39,976 nt of DNA from Thermoplasmata archaeon (GCA_021827405.1 JAKAVY010000014.1:1-39976); one strand, 5' to 3'. Counted from the stretch's first letter, positions 12,646-39,976 are shown. Numbers and translations are program-made. Notes: generated by a model not told the origin, from the letters alone.

Positions 12646-13500
12646 ATGTTGGAGATCCGCTTCCACGGCCGGGGAGGGCAAGGGGCCGTGGTGGCCTCCG
12701 AGCTTCTGGCCCAGGCCGTCTTCTTCGATGGCAAGGTGGCGCAGAGCTTCCCGTTCTTCGGGGTGGAGCGGCGGGGCGCCCCGGTCACGGCGTTCACCCG
12801 GATCGATGACCACCCGATCGAACTTAGGAGCTTCATCGAGCACCCGGACGTGGTGGTGGTGCTGGACCCCGGTCTGCTGAGGGACACCCCGGTCACGGGG
12901 GGTCTCAAGCCGGGAGGCCTCCTCTTGGTGAACTCTCCCCAGGCGCCGGGGGCGTTCTCCCTTCCCCAGGGAGGCACCCTCGCCACCGTGGACGCGACCC
13001 GGATCGCCGTGGGACGTAAGGTGGGGACCGCCACCATGCCCGTGGTCAACACGGCCATGCTGGGAGCGCTCGCCCGGGTCACCGGGGCCTTCACCGAGGC
13101 CTCCCTGGAGCGGGCCATCGTCGCCTTCGTCCCCTCCCATCCCGAAGAGAACCGCGCCGCGGCCCGGGACGGCGCGGAGTCCGTCCGCATGGAACCGGTC
13201 GCCCCGTCCTCCCGGCCTTCTCCCCCGTCGGAGGAGGCCGCTCCCCTTCCTTTCCCGGAGGGGCCGGTGGCCAGCCTGCCGAGCAACATCCTGCACACCT
13301 CGTCCTGGCGTACGCTCCGACCGGTCATTGACCGGGACCGTTGCACCCGGTGCAACTTCTGCTGGGAGTTCTGCCCCGACGACGCCTTCGACTTCGATGC
13401 CGAAGGGTTCCCGGTGGTGAAACTCCTCTATTGCAAGGGCTGCGGGATCTGTGCCACGGAGTGTCCTCCCGATGCCATCCAGATGGTGACGGAGGCGTGA
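12646..13500 (+). CDS. 2-oxoacid (pyruvate-type):ferredoxin oxidoreductase, gamma-delta fusion
   Basis: MLEIRFHGRGGQGAVVASELLAQAVFFDGKVAQSFPFFGVERRGAPV (gamma) fused to RDRCTRCNFCWEFCPDDAF...YCKGCGICATECPPDAIQMV (2x4Fe-4S delta). Confidence 0.93.
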   Translation: MLEIRFHGRGGQGAVVASELLAQAVFFDGKVAQSFPFFGVERRGAPVTAFTRIDDHPIELRSFIEHPDVVVVLDPGLLRDTPVTGGLKPGGLLLVNSPQAPGAFSLPQGGTLATVDATRIAVGRKVGTATMPVVNTAMLGALARVTGAFTEASLERAIVAFVPSHPEENRAAARDGAESVRMEPVAPSSRPSPPSEEAAPLPFPEGPVASLPSNILHTSSWRTLRPVIDRDRCTRCNFCWEFCPDDAFDFDAEGFPVVKLLYCKGCGICATECPPDAIQMVTEA

Positions 13501-13509
13501 GGTACGACC

Positions 13510-14694
13510 ATGGGGTTCAAGGTGCTCTCCGGCAACGGCGCGCAGGCGGAAGCGGCCCGGCTCGCCCGGGTCCAGGTCATCGCGGCCTACCCCATCACTC
13601 CGCAGACCACGATCGTGGAGGCGCTGGCGGACATGGTCGCCTCCGGCGAGCTCAAAGCCCAGTACGTCAAGGTGGAGTCGGAGCACTCGGCCCTCCAGGT
13701 CTGCTTGAGCGCGGCGGCCCTGGGAGCGCGGACCTACTCCGCCACCTCCAGCCAGGGGCTCCTGCTCATGCACGAACTGCTGCACTGGGCCTCCGGCCAG
13801 CGGACCCCCATGGTCCTGGGGGTGGTGAACCGGGCCGTGGCCCCTCCCTGGAACATCGGCGCGGACCACGCGGACACCATGTCCCAGCGGGACACGGGCT
13901 GGATCCAGTTCTACCCGGAAAGCAACCAGGAGGTCCTGGACACCGTGCTCACGGCCTACCGGCTGGTGGAGGACCCGGAGATCCGGCTTCCCGCCATGGT
14001 GACCGAGGACGCCTTCTACCTCTCCCACACCTTCGAGCCGGTCGACGTGCCGGACCCCAAGGTCGTGGACACGTTCCTTCCCCCCAAGGACGCCCGGGCC
14101 ATCCTCCGCCCCGGGGTGGTCTCCCGTCTGGGGAGCTTCACCGGGCCCGACCACTACGTGGACTTCCGCCACCAGGTGGCCGAGGCGATGGACCGGGTCC
14201 TGCCGAAGCTCCAGGAGGTGGAGTCCGAGTACGCCCGTCGCTCCGGCCGCGACCTGGGGGGGCCGCTGGTGGGCTATCGGACCGAGGACGCCGACGCGGT
14301 GCTCCTCACCCTGGGGACCATAAGCACCACCGCCCGGGGGGTGGTCGACGAGCTGCGCTCGTCGGGCCAGAAGGTGGGGATGGCGAAGCTGAGGGTGTTC
14401 CGGCCTTTCCCGGTGGAGGCGGTCCGCGCGCTGGCCCGGGACGTAAGCCGCCTGGGCGTGCTCGACCGGTCGTTCACCTTCGGGTCCTCCGGTCCCGCGG
14501 CCTCGGAGGTCCGTTCCGCCCTCTACGGGGTCCCCTCCCCTCCCTCCGTCACGAGCTTCCTGGCCGGCATCGGGGGGCGGGATGTGGGCCCCAAGGACCT
14601 GCACCGGGTCTTCCAGGCGTTGCTCTCCTCCCGATCCACCGGCCCCCGGTGGATGGACCTGGAGACCGATGGGGGGGTGGTCGTCCATGGCTAA
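13510..14694 (+). CDS. 2-oxoacid:ferredoxin oxidoreductase alpha subunit
   Basis: MGFKVLSGNGAQAEAARLARVQVIAAYPITPQTTIVEALADMVASGELKAQYVKVESEHSALQ... Confidence 0.93.
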   Translation: MGFKVLSGNGAQAEAARLARVQVIAAYPITPQTTIVEALADMVASGELKAQYVKVESEHSALQVCLSAAALGARTYSATSSQGLLLMHELLHWASGQRTPMVLGVVNRAVAPPWNIGADHADTMSQRDTGWIQFYPESNQEVLDTVLTAYRLVEDPEIRLPAMVTEDAFYLSHTFEPVDVPDPKVVDTFLPPKDARAILRPGVVSRLGSFTGPDHYVDFRHQVAEAMDRVLPKLQEVESEYARRSGRDLGGPLVGYRTEDADAVLLTLGTISTTARGVVDELRSSGQKVGMAKLRVFRPFPVEAVRALARDVSRLGVLDRSFTFGSSGPAASEVRSALYGVPSPPSVTSFLAGIGGRDVGPKDLHRVFQALLSSRSTGPRWMDLETDGGVVVHG

Positions 14695-15646
14695 GCTCAC
14701 CATCCCCCGGGAGGAGCTCATGTACTCCGGCCACGCGGCCTGCCCGGGGTGCGGTCCGGCGTTGGCCATGCGGTTCCTGTTGAAGGGCCTGGGACCGCGG
14801 ACCGTGGTCTCGGTGCCCGCCTCCTGCTGGAGCGTGATCGCCACCCCGTACCCCACCACCGCCCTGGGGGTGGGGATGCTGGACAACGCCATCGAGGCGA
14901 CCGGCGCCTCCATCTCCGGGCTGCGGGCCGCGGCCGACGCGCTGGGTCTGGAGGACCTCAACGTGGTCGGGTTCGCTGGGGATGGGGGGACCGCGGACAT
15001 CGGGCTGCAGTCGCTGAGCGGGATGCTGGAGCGACGGACGGACGCCCTCTACGTGATGTACGACAACGAGGCGTACATGAACACCGGGGTCCAGCGCAGC
15101 AGCGCCACCCCCCAGGGGGCCTGGACCACCACCACACCGGTGGCCGGGGAGGCCCGGGGGAAGCTCGAGCCGAAGAAGGACATCATGGCCATCGTCCTGG
15201 CGCATCACCCCGTCTACGCGGCCACGCTGAACCCCAGCTTCCCGGAGGACTTCGTCCGGAAGGTGGAGAGGGCCCGAGGGATGAGGGGGCCTCGCTTCTT
15301 CCACGTGTACGCGGCCTGTCCCCCCGGGTGGCGCTACGACTCCGACCAGACCATCGAGCTGGGAAAGCTGGCCACGTACACCGGTATCTTCCCGCTCTAC
15401 GAGGTAGAGAACGGTCAGCTCCGGATCACCCGGCGGATGGGGCAGCTCAAACCGGTGGAGGACTACCTCGCGGCCCAGGGCCGGTTCCGGCACTTCAGCC
15501 CGGAGGAGGTCCGCCAGGTGAAGGAGCAGGCCGAGGCCCGCTGGGCCGACCTGCTGGCCCGGGAGAAGGCGACGAGTACGCCGGCCCCGGTGCGGGAGGT
15601 CCCCCCGGCCGGGGCCCCGGCCCCGCGACCTTCGGCCACGACGTGA
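14687..15646 (+). CDS. 2-oxoacid:ferredoxin oxidoreductase beta subunit (TPP-binding)
   Basis: ATG 14687 overlaps the alpha stop. MAKLTIPREELMYSGHAACPGCGPALAMRFLLKGLGPRTVVSVPASCWSVI...GFAGDGGTADIGLQSLSGMLERR...YDNEAYMNTGVQRS. Confidence 0.93.
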   Translation: MAKLTIPREELMYSGHAACPGCGPALAMRFLLKGLGPRTVVSVPASCWSVIATPYPTTALGVGMLDNAIEATGASISGLRAAADALGLEDLNVVGFAGDGGTADIGLQSLSGMLERRTDALYVMYDNEAYMNTGVQRSSATPQGAWTTTTPVAGEARGKLEPKKDIMAIVLAHHPVYAATLNPSFPEDFVRKVERARGMRGPRFFHVYAACPPGWRYDSDQTIELGKLATYTGIFPLYEVENGQLRITRRMGQLKPVEDYLAAQGRFRHFSPEEVRQVKEQAEARWADLLAREKATSTPAPVREVPPAGAPAPRPSATT

Positions 15647-29834: not shown

Positions 29835-30299
29835 TCAGGGTTCCCAGCCGCGCTCGGAGCACTCTTGCTCCACCGCGTGGCGGAGGTACTTCAGGGCCGG
29901 CTCGGCGAGCCGGTCGAGGTGCAGGAGAAGGTAGGAGAGGTACACGCGCTCGAGCTCCAGGGTCTGAGAGGCTTGCCGGCGGCCCGGGAAGGAGGGAATG
30001 CCCCGGGGTCCCTCGGGAGCCTCTCCCGAGCGCGCGCGGGCCCCGGCCCGGCTCTCCTCCCCTCCGAGATGGAGGGGACGCGGAAGGGGGAGGGTGGGGG
30101 GACCGTCGGTCCCAAGGCCCCCCGGGAGAAAGGCGGGAAGCCCGATACGGGCGGACGAGGTCGAGCGGGGAACGATGCCGGGGGCTCCCTGCCCGTTCGA
30201 GAGGGATTCCCCCGTCACCTGTTCGACGATCTTGCGGACGGACCAGGGCGTGGCCCTCCGGGGCGGCACGGGGGGAAGGCCGGGAGCGCTGTCGGACAT
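29835..30299 (-). CDS. 154-aa protein of unknown function, last gene of the T4SS-like cluster
   Basis: MSDSAPGLPPVPPRRATPWSVRKIVEQVTGESLSNG...Pro/Gly-rich middle...QTLELERVYLSYLLLHLDRLAEPALKYLRHAVEQECSERGWEP. Confidence 0.65.
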   Translation of the reverse strand: MSDSAPGLPPVPPRRATPWSVRKIVEQVTGESLSNGQGAPGIVPRSTSSARIGLPAFLPGGLGTDGPPTLPLPRPLHLGGEESRAGARARSGEAPEGPRGIPSFPGRRQASQTLELERVYLSYLLLHLDRLAEPALKYLRHAVEQECSERGWEP

Positions 30300-30308
30300 G
30301 TGTCCGAC
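30291..30308. promoter_or_regulatory. Inverted repeat GTCGGACA-TG-TGTCCGAC overlapping the 154-aa gene start codon
   Basis: 8-bp perfect arms, 2-nt spacer; ATG at 30299-30297 (minus). TTTATGTA box about 30 nt upstream overlaps the VirB4 stop codon. Confidence 0.45.
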
Positions 30309-30323
30309 GTTCTCTCCGAGGCC

Positions 30324-32030
30324 CTACATAAACCCCGGCGCTCCAGCGGAAGGCTTCGGCCCTCCGCTGAGGGTTGAGGGAGCCCGGGGCCGCCGCTCCG
30401 TGGCGAAGGCCGCCTCCAGGAGACGGCGTTCCCCTCCGGAAGCGATCACGTGGACCGGGAGCGTGGTCTCCCCGGCAAGCAGCAGGCCACCGGACCAGCC
30501 GTGCTCCCGAGGGAGCGGAGCCCCCTTGACCATCGCGATCTCCTCATCGCGAAGGGGAAAGAGGGCCCTGAGCCCCCGCCCCCCGTCCTTCAACCGGAGC
30601 AGCATCAGATGGTCCACGTTCATCAGGATGGACCGGCCCGCAGGGGAGGAGAGGAAATCCCCCGGGTTCTGGCTGAGCAGCTCCAACCCGGCCCGGTAGT
30701 GCCGCACGTGCCGGACCAGGTGGTCGAGGAACCCGGCCGTCCCGGCCGTCATGAGATAATGCGCCTCGTCGACCACCACGAGCTTCTCCCCCGGGCGGCG
30801 ACGGAGTTCCTCCTGGACGAAGTCGAGCGTCAGGGTGAGGAAGAAAGGGAGTTCCCCCGGGGAGATCCCCGAGAGGTCGAACGCGCAGAGCGGGGCGGAC
30901 AGGTCGACCGAGGTGGGTCGGTCGAGTTCCAAGAGGGAACCCCGGACGGCGCGGGAGATCAGGCTCAGGAGCCGGTCTCCCGCGGGAAGGTCCACTTCCA
31001 GCCGGGCCAGGAGATCGCTGAGCCGGGGGACCGGGTCCGGTCTCTCCTCGTAGAGCCTTCCGAGAGCCACGTCGAGCCGCGCGACCTCCTCGTCCCGGAG
31101 CGACGGGAAGAGGCTTCGCCAGAGCACCCCGACGGTGGCCAGCTTTAGGCGTCGGTCCCCTCCGGTCGTGGCCGGGTCCAGGGGGTTCATGGAGGAGCCG
31201 GGGCTCCCGGGAGCGATCACGACGCCGCCCAGCGCCTCCAGGACCCGGGCGAGCCCCCCCAGCGGGTCCAGGACGAAGACCGACAGCCCCGGGCGCGCCC
31301 AGCGGTTCCTCAGGATGCCGAGCGCGGACGCATAGCTCTTCCCGCTCCCCGTCTCCCCGAACACCACCGAGGAATGGTGGGGGTGCCGGAACCGGTCCAG
31401 GTGCACCGGGGTGCCGTGGAAGGCGTGCGCCCCGAGGAGGGGACCTTCCGGGTCGGGGCTGGGATCCTCCCAGAGTGGGAGAAGCGTGGCCAGACCGCCC
31501 TCCTCGAGGCGATGGAACCACTCCGAGGGGGCCGGACCCCCGGGACAGAGGCTCAGGAAGGCCGGCCATGCCCTCCACCGGGTGCGGGAGGCCCGGACCC
31601 CGAGCCCTTCCAGCTCTCGGAGGGTCTCCTCCAGTCTCGGTTCTCCCGGGGACCGCCCTTCCCTTTGGCGCAGGCCCAAGAGCACATCCCAGAGCCGGGT
31701 GGTCCGGCTCAGCAGTTCCTCCTCGAGGCGTCGGCACCCTTCGGCGGCCTGGACGAAGGGGAGGGCTCGGGGGTCCCTCTCCCCGCGTAAGCTCGCCAGC
31801 TCGGATTCCAGGTGGGTCCGGTCCTCCCGGAGGTCGCGTAGCCCCTCCTCTCGGCCGACCGGCCGGAGCCGGAGGATGGTGTCCAGGGGCGCATCGGTAC
31901 GGCCCAAGGGAGGCAACCCAGGGACCCCCACGACGGTGGGGAAACGTCGGAGCAGTCGGACCCTCCACGATCCCCCGGGTCCCTCGAGGCCCTCCGTCCT
32001 TTCACGCCAGCCCACCCGCCGGCCCGTCAT
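30324..32030 (-). CDS. VirB4/TraC-type T4SS ATPase (C-terminal ATPase half; CedB/HerA-superfamily-like)
   Basis: Walker A FGETGSGKSYASALG; PGSSMNPLDPATTGGDRRLKLATVGVLWRSLFPSLRDEEVARLDVALGRLYEE; Walker B EKLVVVDEAHYLM; VRHVRHYRAGLELLSQNPGDFLSSPAGRSILMNVDHLMLLRL. ATG 32030 overlaps the previous stop (ATGA). Confidence 0.9.
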   Translation of the reverse strand: MTGRRVGWRERTEGLEGPGGSWRVRLLRRFPTVVGVPGLPPLGRTDAPLDTILRLRPVGREEGLRDLREDRTHLESELASLRGERDPRALPFVQAAEGCRRLEEELLSRTTRLWDVLLGLRQREGRSPGEPRLEETLRELEGLGVRASRTRWRAWPAFLSLCPGGPAPSEWFHRLEEGGLATLLPLWEDPSPDPEGPLLGAHAFHGTPVHLDRFRHPHHSSVVFGETGSGKSYASALGILRNRWARPGLSVFVLDPLGGLARVLEALGGVVIAPGSPGSSMNPLDPATTGGDRRLKLATVGVLWRSLFPSLRDEEVARLDVALGRLYEERPDPVPRLSDLLARLEVDLPAGDRLLSLISRAVRGSLLELDRPTSVDLSAPLCAFDLSGISPGELPFFLTLTLDFVQEELRRRPGEKLVVVDEAHYLMTAGTAGFLDHLVRHVRHYRAGLELLSQNPGDFLSSPAGRSILMNVDHLMLLRLKDGGRGLRALFPLRDEEIAMVKGAPLPREHGWSGGLLLAGETTLPVHVIASGGERRLLEAAFATERRPRAPSTLSGGPKPSAGAPGFM

Positions 32031-32434
32031 CTCCGCCCTTCCGGGGTCCGTGACCCCGGGGCCAACGCCCAGGCCAGAAGGGCAGAGAGCAGGGCCAGGA
32101 GGTCGTTCTTGACGAGGAAGGGCAAGGGTTGGAAAGGCTCGAGGAAGAGCCCGAAGCCGGCCACACCGGCCGCCAGCGCAGGGACCCAGGAGACCCACGT
32201 CGTTCTCCCGCCCCCCGCGCCTCGCGGCGTCCGTGGGGCAATCTCCCCGGGGCCCGTGAGCAAGAGGAACCAGACCACGAGGACCAGCGAGGGCGTGGAC
32301 CCGGGATCGACGCCGTACCCGCCCAGCGCGGCCGAAAGCACCGTCACGGCTACAGCGTAAGGGGCCCATCCGGCAAGATTTTGGGGGCGGCGGAACCGGG
32401 GGAGGGGATGTCCGGCCCGCCCGGGCGAGCTCAC
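32027..32434 (-). CDS. Small polytopic membrane protein of the T4SS-like operon, 135 aa
   Basis: GTG 32434 overlaps the upstream TGA (GTGA); VSSPGRAGHPLPRFRRPQNLAGWAPYAVAVTVLSAALGG...TPSLVLVVWFLLLTGPGE...VSWVPALAAGVAGFGLFL...NDLLALLSALLAWALA. Confidence 0.65.
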   Translation of the reverse strand: MSSPGRAGHPLPRFRRPQNLAGWAPYAVAVTVLSAALGGYGVDPGSTPSLVLVVWFLLLTGPGEIAPRTPRGAGGGRTTWVSWVPALAAGVAGFGLFLEPFQPLPFLVKNDLLALLSALLAWALAPGSRTPEGRR

Positions 32435-33150
32435 CAGAGGCCGGCGAGCCTCCTGGCCACTCGCTGGAGCTCCCTGCCGCGGATCCGGCTCCAGGAAGGA
32501 GGGGGGTGGACCGTACCTGCCGTTTCCCCCGGGGCCCCCTCCATCAGCACCCGCGCCGGCAATAGCACGAAGAGCCGGCTCTGGTAGCGGCCGTGACGGA
32601 GCTCCTCCTGGAGCGCCCGGTAGGAGAGGAACGGAGCTCTCTCCGAGGGTGCCGGAGCAGCTCCGGCCGGGGGATCCGGCCACGGGACCGCCAACCTCAC
32701 GAGGAAGAGGTCCCCCGCGGTTCCCGGTAGGAGCCGGAGGAGGGCCCGGGCCTCCTCCAGAAGCCCCTCGGGGTCCTTCCCGAAGACCGGTCGCGGCGGG
32801 AGCTCCCAGGCGGCCCAGAGGCTCCCCTCGGCGTCGCGAAGCAGGTCGCCGCGCACCCGGAGCGACAGGGCAGGCCCGTCCCCCTCCCGGAAGACGAAGA
32901 CCCGACGGAGGTGGTAGCGGAGCGCGTCCGTCACCAGGTCCCAGAGACTCTCGCCCTCGACCTGGAGCAGGCTCAGGGCGGTCGCGACGCCCGCGAGAAG
33001 AAGGCCGGCGAGGGGGCTGAGGGCCAATGCCACCAGGAGCCCTGCGCAGGCGGACAAGAGGGTGCGGAGCAGGGCCCGGCTCCCCGGGAAAGGTCCCAGG
33101 GACATCCGGTGCCCCTGGCGTTCGGGAAGCAAGATTCCGAGATCGCCCAT
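32431..33150 (-). CDS. PrgI/VirB3-like membrane protein fused to VirB4 N-terminal-like domain
   Basis: ALLRTLLSACAGLLVALALSPLAGLLLAGVATALSLLQVEGESLWDLVTDALRYHLRRVFVFREGDGPALSLRVRGDLLRDAEGSLWAAWELPPRPVFGKDPEGLLEEARALLRLLPGTAGDLFLVRLAVPW; two TMs then soluble domain. Confidence 0.6.
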   Translation of the reverse strand: MGDLGILLPERQGHRMSLGPFPGSRALLRTLLSACAGLLVALALSPLAGLLLAGVATALSLLQVEGESLWDLVTDALRYHLRRVFVFREGDGPALSLRVRGDLLRDAEGSLWAAWELPPRPVFGKDPEGLLEEARALLRLLPGTAGDLFLVRLAVPWPDPPAGAAPAPSERAPFLSYRALQEELRHGRYQSRLFVLLPARVLMEGAPGETAGTVHPPPSWSRIRGRELQRVARRLAGLW

Positions 33151-33175
33151 GGTCCATGGTCCCTCCCCCAGGGGC

Positions 33176-34348
33176 TCATCCTGAGGCGCGCCCCCGGGGG
33201 CCCGAAGGCGCCCACGGGGCGGGGGGGCGGGTCCTCGGAGAGGTCCCTCCGCCTCTCCCCCCTACCGTGTTGGAAGGGGAGGAGCTTGCGGCCTTCCCCA
33301 GGTGCCGGGCAAGCGCACCGATGCCTTCGCCAACGCCCCAGACCACCGCGCTGGCCGGGCCTAGCGTGGCCGAGGGCCAGGAGGCCGTGAGCGAGGCGGC
33401 GCTCCTCCCCTTCCCGCCACTGCCGGCGGCCCGGGAGGCCCGGAAGCTGCGGACCCCGTGCTGGAGCCAGCTTCCCCCGGTCTCCGTGGGGGCCCGGGGG
33501 GCCTGGGAGAGGCCGCCCACCACGAGCCCGGAGGGGGCCGGGGCACCCAGGGCGCCCGCCAGTCCGGACCCCGCGGAGGCCAGCAAGGCCGGCATTCCCA
33601 GGGCAACGCCGAAGAGCGCCAGCACGAGCACGACGCTCTGGGAACCCACGGCCAGGGCGAGGGGGACGATGAGGAAACAGGGCAGGAAGACCATCTCCAC
33701 GAAGAGCCTCCAGGCGCGCCGGGCGAGGGAGGCGGCGAAGGGCCAGGGCCACAGCAGCGTGAAGAGGGGCAGCAGGACGACCAGGACCCCCACCAAGGCG
33801 TCCCTCAGGGCGACCAGGTAGGTCAGCATCAGGGTCAGCAGAAGGAGGGTGATCTCCCCGATGAGGGCCAGCAGGCCGTTGTCCCAGGCGATATTGAGCC
33901 CGGCGGGCCCGACTAAGTTGTAGTAGTTTTGCCAGGCCCCTCCCCCGTAGTTGTAGAAGACCGGGTAGACGGCCGAGCCGAAGGTGAAGATCAGGCCCGC
34001 GAGGGGGACGGCCAGGTTGGCGAGCAGCACACCGAGCACCAGCCGGGGGGCCAGGTCCGGCCAGCGCTGGGCCAGGGAGGGCAAAGCGGCCCTCAGGAGA
34101 TAGAGGAGCCCGACCCCCACGATGACGAGGACGGCGAGAGGGTCCACCAGGTTCACCAGCAGGTAACCGCTGAACGCCTGGGCCTGGGCGAAGAGCCCCG
34201 GGGAGGACCAGGAAGCGAAGACCGCTTGGGGAGCCATCTCCGGGACGAAGAGCCCGCCATAGGTGGGCCCCACCACCAGGCTCACCACGGCCGACAGGCC
34301 CCCGAAGAGACCGAAGAGCAGGGCCTTGATGATCACCCCGAGACCCAT
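33176..34348 (-). CDS. VirB6/TrbL/CedA-like polytopic membrane protein
   Basis: Multiple TMs: DPLAVLVIVGVGLLYLLRAALPS...VLGVLLANLAVPLAGLIF...LLALIGEITLLLLTLMLTYLVALRDALVGVLVVLLPLFTLLWPWPFAASLARRAWRLFVEMVFLPCFLIVPLALA; Gly/Ser-rich cytosolic tail. Confidence 0.65.
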   Translation of the reverse strand: MGLGVIIKALLFGLFGGLSAVVSLVVGPTYGGLFVPEMAPQAVFASWSSPGLFAQAQAFSGYLLVNLVDPLAVLVIVGVGLLYLLRAALPSLAQRWPDLAPRLVLGVLLANLAVPLAGLIFTFGSAVYPVFYNYGGGAWQNYYNLVGPAGLNIAWDNGLLALIGEITLLLLTLMLTYLVALRDALVGVLVVLLPLFTLLWPWPFAASLARRAWRLFVEMVFLPCFLIVPLALAVGSQSVVLVLALFGVALGMPALLASAGSGLAGALGAPAPSGLVVGGLSQAPRAPTETGGSWLQHGVRSFRASRAAGSGGKGRSAASLTASWPSATLGPASAVVWGVGEGIGALARHLGKAASSSPSNTVGGRGGGTSPRTRPPAPWAPSGPRGRASG

Positions 34349-34358
34349 GGGCCCTCCG

Positions 34359-34769
34359 TCAGACCCCGGTGAGGACCCATCGGGCGAGCGCCCAGGCGAG
34401 CCCGCTCACGGCGGCCACCAGGATGAGGCTCCCGATGAGCGCGTCGCGGGCGCGCTCCTTGGCCTGGACCTTCCGGGTGGGGTCATGGGAGAACCAGCTC
34501 AATGCCACCCGGGCCCAGACCAGGGTCACCACGGCCCCGGCGGCGATCGACACAATGAACAGGAGCCGGTTCAGGGCCGCCGTGAGGTTGTCGGTGGCAT
34601 TCGCTCCCGCGGGCCGGAGGTGCCCGGCGGGAACGGGGCGGGCCCCCGGGGGGGGAGCGGTCCCGGCCCCGGGCCCTGCCGGGAACCCAGCGGAGACCGA
34701 GAGGGCCGCTCCCAAGAGGGCAAAGAGCCAGAGAAGGAGGGGCGGCCGGGCGGGCCGCGCCAGGGTCAT
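34359..34769 (-). CDS. VirB2/TrbC/CedA1-like small double-TM (pilin-like) protein
   Basis: Signal-like N-terminus LLLWLFALLGAALSVSAG, then LNRLLFIVSIAAGAVVTLVWARVALSWFSHDPTRKVQAKERARDALIGSLILVAAVSGLAWALARWVLTGV. ATG overlaps stop of the giant gene (ATGA). Confidence 0.65.
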   Translation of the reverse strand: MTLARPARPPLLLWLFALLGAALSVSAGFPAGPGAGTAPPPGARPVPAGHLRPAGANATDNLTAALNRLLFIVSIAAGAVVTLVWARVALSWFSHDPTRKVQAKERARDALIGSLILVAAVSGLAWALARWVLTGV

Positions 34770-37700
34770 AGGGCGCCCTCCCGGGCGGTCTCCTCAGACT
34801 TCGGGGCCGGTCCGGGGTAGTAACGGGTCTTCCCCTCGGCATCCTCCTCGCGGTGGACCTTCCCAGAGGCCGCCAGGGCCTCCAGCTCCCGTCCGGCGTC
34901 GTCCCCCGGCCACCCCTTCATCTGGGCCAGGGCCCCCAGGGAATCCGCCTCCTCCCCGGGCGTGGCCTCCACCTGCTCGAGGAGCTCCTCCCGACCGTCG
35001 GTCAGGGGAGGGGGTGCCTTGCGTCCTTTCCTGCGGAAACGGAAGAAGAGCGCCGAGCCCAGCAACCCCCCGAGGAAGAGAGCGAGCAGCACCAGCCCCA
35101 GGAGGTCCGGGGGCGGGCTGCCGGGGCCCGGGAGCAGAACCGTGGTCGCTGCCCCGTAGGGGCCGGTCACGTTCACCCGAAGGGCGGACCCGGCCCCCGG
35201 GAGGAGCAGCGTGACCCGGCCTGCCTCGGCCACGCCCGAGACCGGGGTGAGCCCGGGGGCCTGGGCCGTCACCGGATACCCGCTCAAGGGGTTGCCATAG
35301 ACGTCGGTGGCCTCCACCGTGAGGAAGAGGTCCGGACCATGGACGCTATAGGAGGCGACCCGCAGGACCCCTTCCTCCGGGTCGGCGATCCAGGTGTAGG
35401 AGAACGTCAGCGAAGGTCCCCCCGGCGCGCTCAGCACGTAGCTCACGTTCCCGGCCCGCTCCTCCGAGAGAAGGAACCGGGCCCACCCCCCCTCGACCGG
35501 CGAGAGCTCCGGGTCCCCCAATGCCCCCGCTCCCTGCCAGGCCTGGAGGGTGGCGTTGCCCGAGGCGGTCGTGTTCACGTTCCCGAACGCGTCCACCTCC
35601 GCCACGGCCACCGACACGTTCTGGCCGGCAAACCCCTCGGCCGAGAGGTCGGGGAGCATCCAGCCCACCACCGGGCCCGGACGCACCTCCACCCTCGTGT
35701 AGAAGGTCAGATTGGTGAGGAGCGTCCGGTCCGGCGCGAAGACCGAGACCGAGAAGGCGACCGCCACCATCCCGCTCCGGTTCTCCAGGAAGGTGGCCGT
35801 GCCTCCCCGATCCCCGGTGAGCCCGGGGCCCCACCAGGTCTCCGAGACGATCTCCCCGGGGGAGGACCACGGGTCGGGCCAGGTGGCCACCAGGGTCTCC
35901 GGGACGCCGGCCTGGGCGGCCGGTGTCGTGAGCAGCGGGGCCGGCGGCTCGGCGAGCCCGTCCAGCCAGGTGGTCTGCTCCACCTGCTTCCCCAGGGCGT
36001 CCCGGACCTCCAGGGTGACGGAGTCTCCTCCCGGTGCGTCGATGGGGAGGGTGAGGTTCCAGGTCCCATCGGAAGGGATCGGGACCCATGTCGAGGAGAG
36101 GTTCGACACTCCCAGCACCCGACCTTCGAAGGGGGCCATACCCCCCTCCACGACGCCGGTGAGGGTGGGGAGGAAGGGGAGGAGCCCCTCGGGGACCGGG
36201 ACGTCCAGTTCCAGGGCGAGCGGGTCGGCCATGGCCGTGACGTTCTCCTCGGAGGTGAGCACCGCCCCGGCGGCATCCACCGCCTGGCCCACCAGCGTGT
36301 AGTTCCCGGGGTGGGGGAAGGTGAAGGTGGCGTTGAGACCCGGGTAGGAGCCGAGCCCCAGCACCTCAAGGCCCCCCGACCAGGGCAGGCTCCCCCCTTC
36401 CGGCGTCCAGGTGTACGGCTCCGGTACGCCCACCGCCACGGTGGAAGGCCCGGACCACGGCCCGTCGGACGGGGCCGGCAGGACCGAGACATTGAGGGAG
36501 AGCTCGACCGTGGCCCCGGCCTGGTCCCGGGCCCAGGCCTCCAGCGTGTAGTCCCCGGGCCGGGAGAAGAGGAGGGCGCCGGAGGGGAGCACCGAAGCCC
36601 CGGGGGGCAGGACCCACCCGGAGGAGTAAGGGGGGGTCCCGCCCTGCATGGAGGCGTCGACGGGGGTCGGCAGCCCCACATCCGTGGTGGGGATCTTCGA
36701 CGAGAGGGACAGGACGAGCGCCGGGTTCACGGTGAGGACCAGCGCGCCCTGGGCCGTGGCCCCGAGGCCGTCTTCGACGGTGAGCCCGATGACGTAGCGA
36801 CCCGGCGTCACCGTGGAGGCGGTGGCGAACGGCCCGTCCGAGGAGAATGGAAGCCCCGGCGGGACCTCCCAATGGTAGCTGAGGTTCCCATACCCGCCGT
36901 CCGCCGTGGCCTCGAAGGACACGGAGGACCCCTCGTCCACTTCCGTGGCGGAGGCCCCCAGGCCGAGCGAGACGTGCGGCACCACGGGGAAGCTCAGGGA
37001 CTGGTAGACCCGCGTGCCCGTGGCGTCCGTGACCTCCAACGTCCCGTTGACGGACCCGGCCTGACCGGGGGTGAGGGTCAGGTCCGCGAGACCGAGGCCC
37101 ACCTCCAGGAGGGAGCCCAACTGCCAGCGATAGGTGAAGGGGCCCACCCCCCCGACCTCCTGGGCCGCAAGGGGGAACGCCACCCCCACTTCCGCCGCCG
37201 GGCTGGGAACGAGGACCGGGCCCAAGGACAAGGCGGGGGCCACCGGGAGCGTGAGGGAACTGGCCACCTGGGCGCCCGCCCCGTCGGTGAGCACCACCCG
37301 AACGGTCTGCGTCCCCGCCTGGGGGAAGGTGTAGGAGACCGAACTTCCCCCGGACCCACTGAGACCGGGCATCGTCCAGAGGAGGTTCTCCGGCGAGGAG
37401 CCTCCCAGGACGAGGGCGCTGAGGAGCACGGGCTCCCCCACCTCCGGGGTGCTCTCGTTGCTCTGCAAGAGGAGCGTGGGCGCGGGGGCGACGGAGACGT
37501 TCAAGGGGGGTGCCGAGGCGGTCGTACCTTGGGCGTCGGTGACGGTGAGGCTCACTTGGTAGAGGCCGGGGACCCAGAAGACGGTGGTGGGATCGGCGAG
37601 AGAGCTTCCGGTCCCGTCCCCGAACTGCCAGGAGTAGTTGTAGGGAGGGACCCCGAAGGAGACCTGACTTTCGAACGAGGTGGCGAGACCCACATCGACG

Positions 37701-39976
37701 CCCGGCTCGCGGAGGGAGGAGGTGGCCGAAGGGTCAGGGACCACCGAGACCCGGACGGGCGTGGCGTTCGCGCCGACTCCCGTGGCATCGACGAGCCGGG
37801 CGGTCACGGTGTAGGTCCCGGCCTGCTGGTAAGCATGACCGGCCGGCGCGGGCACCGGCGCGCTCCCATCCCCGAAGTCTACCGTTTCCGTGGACCAGGG
37901 CCCCGTGCCTCCCTGGACCTCGAGGGAGGCCTCCAGGGCCTCTCCCACATCCACCCGGGCCGCGCTCAGGACCAGGGCCACCTGCGGGAGGGGGTGAACG
38001 GTGAGCGGGGAAGAGGAGAGGACCCGGTCCCCCAGGGCATCGGTGACCTGGAGGGAGAGGACCTGCGAACCCGGCTCCGGGAGGTCCAGCGTCTCGGGAA
38101 ACCTCCCGGTGGTGCCGGCAAAGGTCACCGCGGGGCCATCGGAGACGTTGAGGGTCCCCGCGTAGGGAGGGACCCCACCTCCCACGGTCACCGTGAGAGA
38201 GAGGGACCCCACGTCCGTGGCCGTCGTGGGGAGCTCGAGGGCCGCGCCGAGCGCGGGGGCCACCGAGACCGTGGCATGGGTGAAGGCCTCCAGGCCGCCG
38301 GAATCCTGGACCGATGCGGAAAGGGTCAAAGGCCCCGGCACCCGAGGGACCCACGGGACCTCCAGGAGTCCCCCGAGCACCGGACCCAAGGGGAGGGAGA
38401 CCCCATCGGAGCCCTCTACGTCCACCTGGTACGGCGGGGTCCCGCCGCTCAAGAGGAGGGCCAAGGAGACCGGGAGGCCTACCTCGGCCGGGGGGAGCGG
38501 GCTCAGGAAGCCGGCGGTGAGCGGCGCCACCCCGGTGAGCGGGAACGACGCGGAGACGTTCGCCTGGTCCGCGTCCTCGACGCTCAAGGTGGCCACCACG
38601 CTGCCCGCCGAGTCCAGCGTCCCGCGGAACGTGACCACCCCCGGGCTCGAGAGCGAGCCCTCTTGCGCGGTCATCGCGGTCACCGGGGAGGAGAAGCTGA
38701 GGTCCCAGTGGTAGGGAGCCAATCCCCCGGAGACGGTCCCCCACAGGGTGAAGGGGCTGCCGGTGGCCAGGGGGGTGGCCGAGCCCGTCAAGGTGGCCTG
38801 GGGGTCGGGCAGGACCCGGCCCACCTCCTCCGAGGCGGAGAAGGCGACCCCGGAGGCGTCCCGTCCGCTCCCGGAGAGGACGACCGGCCCCGGGTCCGGG
38901 ACGGAGAACGGCTCGGGGTAGACGCCCGGCGCCGGGAAGGTCCCCTCAAGGGAAGGGCCCCCCAGGTAGGGTTCCCAGGAGATCGTGTAGGGAGGCGTCC
39001 CGCCCGCGATGGTCAAGGTCTCGGCGAGGGGAAGACCGACGTCGGCATCGGGGGGACTGGCGGCCAGGCTCAAGGTGGGAAGCGGGGCCACCGAGTCGGA
39101 GACCTCCGGGGCCTGGGTGCTCCTTCCGGAGGAGTCGTGGACGATGAGGCTGATCCCCAGGGGACCCGGGGTGCTGGGGTCCACCGTGAAGTTCGCCCCT
39201 TGCACGGACCCGGTCCCCCGAGAAGCCTGCCAGGCGTACGCGTAGGGAGGGGTGCCTCCGGTCACGGACGCGCTGAAGGTCACCGGGACGCCCACGTCGG
39301 AGACCCCGGGGCCGCTCACGGCCGCGAGCAGGGTGTCCCCCACGACCACCGGGGTGCTGGCCGGGACGGAGATGACCTCCCCGAGGGCGTCGGAGACGTT
39401 GGCCTGGGGGCGGTAGTCCCCGAGGGCATAGGTATGGGAGACCACGTCGGTGCCCGGGGCCGGGAGGACGGAGAGCTCCTCGCTGCCGTCGCCGAAGCGA
39501 TAGCGCACCTGGTACGGGCCGGTCCCCCCGTAGACCGGCAGTTGGAGGACGACCGGGGTGCCGGCGGTCGCCGGGTCGGGCGAGATGGAGAACGGGCCGG
39601 CCTCGAGCACCGGCTCGAGCGCGACGGAGGCGTTCGCCGTGAGGGTGAAGGGGCCGGTGACGCCCAGGACCGCATAGCCGGTCACCGTGACCTGGGCGGT
39701 GGCGTTCACCGGGGAGAGCACGGAAGCGGCGGTCAGGGTGGTGGAGAGGGCGTCGGTCGGGGAGAGGGAGCCGGCCCCGGTCGCGTTCAAGAGGACCCAG
39801 CGGACGCTCTGGACCACCACGGGGTCGGCGGGGAAGACGCTCTCGACCTCGGCGGTAAGGCTCTGGGAGGTGTCCGCGAGAAGCGTGGCCGACGGAGGGT
39901 CGATGGAAAGGAGGGCGTAGTCGTTCCCGCTCTCGGGGGCGGCGGTGCCGGGGGTGGGGGCCTGGGAGGGAGCGCT
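34766..39976 (-). CDS. Giant PKD-repeat surface protein, single C-terminal TM, winged-helix-like cytoplasmic tail; N-terminus beyond window
   Basis: The frame stays open through the right window edge (SAPSQAPTPGTAAPESGNDYALLSIDPPSATLL...VVVQSVRWVLLN), so M at 39820 is probably internal. Over a dozen PKD-like units with D-V-G-x-P...GGTPPY...; TM LLGLVLLALFLGGLLGSALFFRFRRKGRK. Confidence 0.9.
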   Translation of the reverse strand, partial: SAPSQAPTPGTAAPESGNDYALLSIDPPSATLLADTSQSLTAEVESVFPADPVVVQSVRWVLLNATGAGSLSPTDALSTTLTAASVLSPVNATAQVTVTGYAVLGVTGPFTLTANASVALEPVLEAGPFSISPDPATAGTPVVLQLPVYGGTGPYQVRYRFGDGSEELSVLPAPGTDVVSHTYALGDYRPQANVSDALGEVISVPASTPVVVGDTLLAAVSGPGVSDVGVPVTFSASVTGGTPPYAYAWQASRGTGSVQGANFTVDPSTPGPLGISLIVHDSSGRSTQAPEVSDSVAPLPTLSLAASPPDADVGLPLAETLTIAGGTPPYTISWEPYLGGPSLEGTFPAPGVYPEPFSVPDPGPVVLSGSGRDASGVAFSASEEVGRVLPDPQATLTGSATPLATGSPFTLWGTVSGGLAPYHWDLSFSSPVTAMTAQEGSLSSPGVVTFRGTLDSAGSVVATLSVEDADQANVSASFPLTGVAPLTAGFLSPLPPAEVGLPVSLALLLSGGTPPYQVDVEGSDGVSLPLGPVLGGLLEVPWVPRVPGPLTLSASVQDSGGLEAFTHATVSVAPALGAALELPTTATDVGSLSLTVTVGGGVPPYAGTLNVSDGPAVTFAGTTGRFPETLDLPEPGSQVLSLQVTDALGDRVLSSSPLTVHPLPQVALVLSAARVDVGEALEASLEVQGGTGPWSTETVDFGDGSAPVPAPAGHAYQQAGTYTVTARLVDATGVGANATPVRVSVVPDPSATSSLREPGVDVGLATSFESQVSFGVPPYNYSWQFGDGTGSSLADPTTVFWVPGLYQVSLTVTDAQGTTASAPPLNVSVAPAPTLLLQSNESTPEVGEPVLLSALVLGGSSPENLLWTMPGLSGSGGSSVSYTFPQAGTQTVRVVLTDGAGAQVASSLTLPVAPALSLGPVLVPSPAAEVGVAFPLAAQEVGGVGPFTYRWQLGSLLEVGLGLADLTLTPGQAGSVNGTLEVTDATGTRVYQSLSFPVVPHVSLGLGASATEVDEGSSVSFEATADGGYGNLSYHWEVPPGLPFSSDGPFATASTVTPGRYVIGLTVEDGLGATAQGALVLTVNPALVLSLSSKIPTTDVGLPTPVDASMQGGTPPYSSGWVLPPGASVLPSGALLFSRPGDYTLEAWARDQAGATVELSLNVSVLPAPSDGPWSGPSTVAVGVPEPYTWTPEGGSLPWSGGLEVLGLGSYPGLNATFTFPHPGNYTLVGQAVDAAGAVLTSEENVTAMADPLALELDVPVPEGLLPFLPTLTGVVEGGMAPFEGRVLGVSNLSSTWVPIPSDGTWNLTLPIDAPGGDSVTLEVRDALGKQVEQTTWLDGLAEPPAPLLTTPAAQAGVPETLVATWPDPWSSPGEIVSETWWGPGLTGDRGGTATFLENRSGMVAVAFSVSVFAPDRTLLTNLTFYTRVEVRPGPVVGWMLPDLSAEGFAGQNVSVAVAEVDAFGNVNTTASGNATLQAWQGAGALGDPELSPVEGGWARFLLSEERAGNVSYVLSAPGGPSLTFSYTWIADPEEGVLRVASYSVHGPDLFLTVEATDVYGNPLSGYPVTAQAPGLTPVSGVAEAGRVTLLLPGAGSALRVNVTGPYGAATTVLLPGPGSPPPDLLGLVLLALFLGGLLGSALFFRFRRKGRKAPPPLTDGREELLEQVEATPGEEADSLGALAQMKGWPGDDAGRELEALAASGKVHREEDAEGKTRYYPGPAPKSEETAREGAL

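Follow-up and report, generated by a model that had tools for sequence, protein, structure and literature searches.

Gene Organization of the Locus

The stretch of DNA analyzed here (the window) is a whole contig, G000:C5, with a length of 39,976 bp, from an archaeal genome of 1.82 Mb that is 91% complete. The organism belongs to Candidatus (Ca.) Lutacidiplasmatales, an acid-soil order of Thermoplasmatota, and to the family designated f1; AcS1-45 and AcS5-116, relatives in the same protein family, are given as Ca. Lutacidiplasmatales (PMC9287336). Seven genes on the minus strand of the window encode a candidate apparatus derived from a type IV secretion system (T4SS), in the order giant surface protein, VirB2-like pilin, VirB6-like protein, PrgI/VirB3-like protein, small membrane protein, VirB4 ATPase and a protein of 154 amino acids (aa) (Table 1). 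The gene order, strand and coordinates given in an earlier note on this DNA were all correct, and the three overlapping junctions described there were found again, together with gaps of 10-25 nucleotides (nt).

Table 1. Features of the T4SS-like locus in the window
Feature	Coordinates	Strand	Basis
Giant surface protein: PKD/Ig-repeat ectodomain, C-terminal transmembrane (TM) helix, cytosolic winged-helix tail	34766..39976	-	Pfam
Winged-helix tail of the giant, residues 1663-1735	34769..34990	-	Tail profile, PDB profile matches
VirB2-like pilin, 136 aa	34359..34769	-	Pfam T4SS_pilin PF18895, AlphaFold2 (AF2) hairpin
VirB6-like polytopic membrane protein, 390 aa	33176..34348	-	AF2 model, Foldseek
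PrgI/VirB3-like membrane protein (239 aa) that includes the start of the VirB4 N-terminal domain	32431..33150	-	Alignment to PrgI-VirB4 fusions
Small membrane protein; 135 aa if begun at GTG 32434, 106 aa with GTG 32347 as start	32027..32434	-	Open reading frame (ORF), overlaps
VirB4 ATPase, 568 aa	30324..32030	-	PDB and NCBIfam profile matches, Walker motifs
154-aa protein, no assigned function	29835..30299	-	Position downstream of VirB4

The giant and VirB2 genes overlap by 4 nt (ATGA, 34769..34766), and the small membrane protein and VirB4 genes by an ATGA at 32030..32027. A GTGA overlap joins the VirB3-like gene to the small membrane protein gene, provided that the latter begins at GTG 32434, which is the most likely start and yields the third overlap. 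The remaining junctions are gaps of 10 (VirB2/VirB6), 25 (VirB6/VirB3-like) and 24 nt (VirB4/154-aa protein). The longest ORF for VirB4 (30324-32369, 681 aa) is too long at its start, and the shorter gene in Table 1 is most likely the actual one. The small membrane protein has no Pfam match, and a protein of matching position and size class is present in family relatives. The 154-aa protein, a homologue of which also has no Pfam match, lies 3' of VirB4 in most of the genera examined and does not adjoin it in the loci of genera g3, g4 and g7.

Identity of the Core Components

The assignment of VirB4 is regarded as secure. The VirB4 profile matched 4ag5, a solved VirB4-like protein, over residues 191-540 (E 5e-40), the NCBIfam entry VirB4-like CD1110 was also matched (E 2e-25), and the Walker A (GETGSGKS) and Walker B (VVVDEAH) motifs are intact in the alignment. 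A search of the same genome with PF19044 gave no match although VirB4 is encoded there, which indicates that single-family searches overlook these divergent proteins. Pfam gave nothing for the VirB6-like protein of the window and nothing useful for the VirB3-like one, and PDB sequence searches with these two proteins returned no matches; identities beyond the Pfam matches of the window proteins came from profiles, structure models and natural fusions.

The family profile of the VirB3-like protein aligns to residues ~5-290 of PrgI-VirB4 fusion proteins of 860-950 aa (E 5e-13 to 5e-18). These fusions are proteins of sister genera, of the integrative conjugative element (ICE) type, with VirB4 at residues ~312-851 of the same chain and a weak PrgI match. 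Because of this alignment, the 239-aa protein is read as a PrgI/VirB3-like anchor that also carries the beginning of the VirB4 N-terminal domain, and the VirB3/PrgI partner of a T4SS core is taken to be present; direct Pfam matches to PrgI were weak and found in 2 of 22 alignment members. For the VirB6-like protein, an AF2 model (pLDDT 78) was compared with the PDB by Foldseek, and the top six matches were R388 TrwI/VirB6 chains (best probability 0.99, E 0.09). One member of the alignment matched Pfam TrbL/VirB6 (E 7e-4). These results are supportive of a predicted VirB6 identity, though not significant by the structural E-value, and a VirB6-type inner-membrane pore was counted as present, the E of 0.09 notwithstanding.

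VirB2 is the least secure of the assignments, being based on a weak T4SS_pilin match and on the predicted hairpin shape. The window protein matches PF18895 with an E of 5e-5, under the curated cut-off, and the homologue at locus L039 exceeds the cut-off (E 1.7e-8). The AF2 model consists of a signal-peptide-like helix followed by a hairpin of helices 57-92 and 97-134 with a charged loop. At L039:10826-15685, in an Aciduliprofundum-like genome, about six tandem VirB2-like ORFs (82-405 aa) were observed ahead of VirB6, an arrangement reminiscent of the pilin arrays in Patescibacteria. The reading of the window genes as a T4SS inner-membrane core was upheld, with VirB4 as the strongest match; of the structural similarity expected for VirB6 and VirB2, that of VirB6 was borne out by the R388 chains, and the fold search with VirB2 was uninformative.

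Distribution and Inheritance in Thermoplasmata

VirB4 was detected in all 24 same-family relatives first sampled and in 53 of the 62 family genomes of a wider sample, and VirB2 was present as a single copy in each of 59 out of 71 family genomes. Gene order is retained across seven genera of the family, and in most loci the giant immediately precedes VirB2 and again overlaps it by 4 nt, so the arrangement is far beyond chance. The VirB2-B6-B3-B4 set, whole or in part, also occurs in families f11, f15, f19, f27 and f31, making six families with f1, and VirB3 and VirB4 are fused in part of f19; genes of AT-rich loci were called with relaxed training. Family f15 resembles named DHVE2-group contigs, and its genome G039 is presumably Aciduliprofundum boonei; genome G101 of f19, which we take to be Thermoplasma acidophilum, would be a cultivable carrier. 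The flanking genes are of the housekeeping type and differ by family: fibrillarin and L-PSP in f1 and, judging by the sequences themselves, topoisomerase VI in f31 and enolase, CysS and topoisomerase I in f11. Downstream of VirB4 at the f31 locus L172:10332-13006 come a VirD4-like ATPase and a GINS/Sld5-like gene; topoisomerase VI B/A-like genes lie upstream in divergent orientation. Synteny in related archaeal genomes is conserved, over seven genera and six families. The earlier note had placed the system in a different archaeal lineage from that of the crenarchaeal machines; it is indeed non-crenarchaeal, but its presence in six or more families of the class shows that it is not confined to a single lineage.

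In the VirB4 tree every family lies on one side of a branch, with a support of 100 for f1, f19, f11, f15 and f31 and of 99 for f27, and the family labels are clustered with 7 changes, the minimum possible. The VirB4s of ICE-like loci in f1 genomes form a separate group (support 99) outside the core clade. The trees were quick ones, with support from the Shimodaira-Hasegawa-like approximate likelihood-ratio test (SH-aLRT) only and some long-branched f19 rows; the second tree leaves out the f31 row L173, a mis-assigned ATPase. Since each family has one VirB4 clade and the ICE-like VirB4s fall outside the core, the system is read as vertically inherited and domesticated, and these sequence comparisons make it very probable that a domesticated apparatus of T4SS origin resides on Thermoplasmata chromosomes, as had been proposed in preference to conjugation. 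The ICE-like loci are a second T4SS in genera g3 and g4 (L042, L043, L044, L046, L047, L049) and contain VirB6, the PrgI-VirB4 fusion, a ~175-aa protein and a VirD4/TraG-like ATPase of 1,100 aa; a VirD4 piece was also seen in G002 (L212).

The Giant Surface Protein and Its Winged-Helix Tail

The giant matches Pfam PKD_4 (E 1e-39) and PKD (6e-35) and has its TM helix near residue 1621. Its N-terminus is missing here, the contig ending at 39976; relatives have 1762-1825 aa and an N-terminal hydrophobic segment, and the missing part, including the signal peptide, is estimated at ~40-90 aa. The ectodomain is the variable part; its length lies between ~500 and 1,825 aa, and some genomes lack it. 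The constant part, kept near VirB2 in Lutacidiplasmatales, is the TM anchor with the cytosolic winged-helix tail. The earlier note's account of the PKD protein needs revision in that its ectodomain is variable or absent and the conserved anchor and winged helix had been overlooked. The tail profile was found in nearly all family giants, and its PDB profile matches are mostly winged-helix regulators; the best natural match was 8pqm, at E 6e-5 when all tails were used and at 3e-4 when the search was limited to family tails. Two better-scoring matches of the family-tails search were designed repeat proteins and were set aside. In a 100% complete genome, a stand-alone 86-aa winged-helix protein equivalent to the tail (L026:13270-13530), with neither ectodomain nor TM helix, lies upstream of VirB2 and overlaps it by 10 nt, and no tail was found at L035 and L060.

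The giants of f15 (L039, L163) share the layout of Ig/PKD-like repeats, TM helix and ~90-aa tail and adjoin the pilin gene. A common origin of the giants across families is likely by position, not by sequence, and several families keep the core without a giant.

Unlinked VirD4/TrwB-Like ATPase

No relaxase and no VirD4 is encoded at the window locus. The genome gave no match to the relaxase family PF03432, for which the control is weak in archaea (positive in only 1 of 14 genomes), and none to PF12696 (TraG-D_C). A homologous query nevertheless found a homologue of the ICE VirD4 on contig C65 (L201:7846-10332), an 828-aa protein beside KaiC-like genes, with a TrwB_AAD_bind score of 23.9 bits against a cut-off of 20.5. 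The absence of relaxase and VirD4 that had been noted holds for the locus; for the genome as a whole it must be qualified by this unlinked ATPase, which co-occurs with the module. A second VirD4/TrwB-like match of the same genome, at G000:C24:26843-28048, is also unlinked.

Among 300 genomes, 85 had both VirB4 and a VirD4-like ATPase, 13 VirB4 only, 24 the VirD4-like ATPase only and 178 neither; outside f1 the corresponding numbers were 35, 10, 16 and 177. VirD4-like ATPases occur in five of the six VirB4-bearing families (directly after VirB4 in f31, where a related ATPase is found), and two further families have them without VirB4, giving a family-level p of 0.0004-0.001 if the sample is assumed to comprise 28-35 families.

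Comparison with Known Systems

The Ced system of Sulfolobales (CedA, CedA1, CedA2, CedB, CedD, CedE) resembles the module as a reduced chromosomal T4SS with VirB6-, VirB2- and VirB4-like parts and no relaxase. In both, the VirB4 N-terminal domain is split between proteins; CedB and CedD jointly form one such domain (PMC11868833), whereas the piece in the module is fused to a PrgI/VirB3-like anchor. The module ATPase is nearer to VirB4 than to CedB or CedD. With the equivalog profiles, the window VirB4 scored 28.2 bits for CedD against a cut-off of 600 and did not match CedB, and the module was not classed as Ced because these cut-offs were far from reached. It also differs in its giant PKD/winged-helix partner, and Ced is defined in Crenarchaea. 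Ted of Thermoproteales (TedA, TedB, TedC) shares the VirB4-VirB6-VirB2 set, and its pilin TedC has, like the module pilin, a predicted signal peptide (PMC9905601). In contrast, no solved pilin matches the module pilin in sequence, no HerA, ParA or Rad50 was seen at the window locus, and a PrgI/VirB3-like protein and the giant are present.

The chromosomal, MPF_FATA-derived T4SSs of Patescibacteria are likewise widespread and relaxase-less, with PF18895-type pilins that also occur in arrays and coupling-protein homologues usually distant from virB4 (PMC12102498). They belong to another domain of life, and no PrgB-type adhesin was found there (PMC12102498), unlike the module with its giant. The Prg system of pCF10 and other monoderm (MPF_FATA) conjugation systems share the PrgI-VirB4 pairing. 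In pCF10, a large surface adhesin, PrgB, is encoded together with the T4SS, a likeness to the giant. However, no relaxase, VirB1 or VirB8 was recognized in the module, which is chromosomal and vertically inherited, and its giant is held by a TM anchor and ends in a winged helix on the cytosolic side.

Proposed Function and Alternative Explanations

The best overall explanation is probably a domesticated T4SS-derived apparatus with DNA as its likeliest cargo. By analogy with Ced and Ted, DNA exchange is the likeliest function, a reading we hold with somewhat more belief than doubt; of the Ced/Ted-like or contact-dependent transfer first suggested, the relaxase-less T4SS core is in place, and the role of DNA continues to be inferred. 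VirB4, on its PrgI/VirB3-like anchor, would pull signal-peptide-bearing VirB2 subunits out of the membrane, and these might be stacked, with VirB6 as the pore, to form a conduit or short pilus. The giant of Lutacidiplasmatales and of the DHVE2/Aciduliprofundum family, translationally coupled or adjacent, would recognize or hold partner cells and could either signal contact inward or dock DNA at the machine's base; such docking or sensing by the winged helix is a tentative and rather doubtful element. The cargo would be DNA destined for recombination and passed from one cell to a related one, as with Ced and Ted, with the unlinked VirD4/TrwB-like ATPase possibly serving as DNA motor.

Several results weigh against this explanation. 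Nine of the 62 family genomes lack VirB4, including G099 (93% complete, 7 contigs), hence the system is dispensable. Foldseek E-values for VirB6 are above 0.05 with low TM-scores (0.31/0.40), and VirB2 gave no structural match at E <= 0.001 and no match among PDB sequences, including solved pilins. The tails of Lutacidiplasmatales and f15 are weakly similar (hhalign probability 3%, E 0.013), and those of f15, the Aciduliprofundum type, match no winged-helix structure when searched alone. The genomes are related and hence not independent, so the nominal co-occurrence p-values overstate the significance. Eight of the nine f1 genomes without VirB4 retain a VirD4-like ATPase, and the DHVE2/Aciduliprofundum family has none, which makes the tie of these ATPases to the module a loose one.

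A pilus for attachment or interspecies contact, in which VirB2 is the subunit, the giant the adhesin and no DNA is moved, is a less probable but serious alternative. It would account for the lack of a relaxase and coupling protein at the locus, the large PKD/Ig ectodomain and the tandem VirB2-like array, and cryo-electron tomography has revealed pervasive pili, and Thermoplasmatales that penetrate ARMAN cells in a needle-like manner (PMC4110969). However, a VirD4-like ATPase is usually present in module-bearing families, several families have the core but no giant, and Ced and Ted also lack a relaxase, yet are reported to be DNA importers (PMC9905601). Secretion of proteins or effectors toward other microbes is distinctly unlikely. 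Patescibacteria offer the precedent, with chromosomal T4SSs that are VirD4-less or relaxase-less, have VirB2-like pilins and are read as non-conjugative (PMC12102498), and the PF18895 pilin is common to them and the module, but the loci have no consistently linked gene for an effector-like cargo or for immunity, the flanks being housekeeping genes specific to each family. An ordinary ICE caught in the window, for which VirB6-PrgI/VirB4-VirD4 loci in sister genera provide a model, is very improbable and was rejected on the VirB4 tree and distribution, as the module is a single copy at syntenic sites in nearly all of the family rather than patchy, the tree follows taxonomy with the ICE VirB4s apart, no relaxase or TraG-D_C match was found in the genome, and the VirD4-like ATPase is unlinked instead of accompanying a relaxase within an element.

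Novelty and Significance

T4SS-derived machines for DNA exchange have been described in two crenarchaeal lineages, as Ced and Ted. Besides these, a review of December 2025 lists only conjugative plasmids for archaea (PMC12857230). No description of the Thermoplasmata module was found in the open-access literature, in agreement with the earlier note, and a "VirB4 component" is mentioned in passing for E-plasma (PMC10354927). The module is apparently a so far undescribed and long-kept device for cell-to-cell transfer, probably of DNA. It is conceivable, although we consider it less likely than otherwise, that it represents a third, independent line of archaeal T4SS domestication, providing class-wide DNA exchange in Thermoplasmata, in some orders with contact sensed by a giant membrane-anchored receptor that would bind DNA at the channel through its cytosolic winged helix, and a candidate mechanism for genetic exchange in Ferroplasma. 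Genetic exchange in Ferroplasma populations was reportedly described by Eppley in 2007, and if the proposed function holds, the module would offer a testable basis for it in Ferroplasma-type populations. As the cultivable Thermoplasma acidophilum appears to be a carrier, if we have identified that genome correctly, the question is open to a laboratory organism. Pili and contacts between cells, which imaging has shown in acid-mine Thermoplasmatales (PMC4110969), would gain a testable basis from the same function.

Other Features of the Window

Elsewhere in the window, a large minus-strand protein truncated at the contig start (2-4519) reads like an acid protease of the kumamolisin/sedolisin type, and the genes at 12646-15646 read like a 2-oxoacid:ferredoxin oxidoreductase operon.

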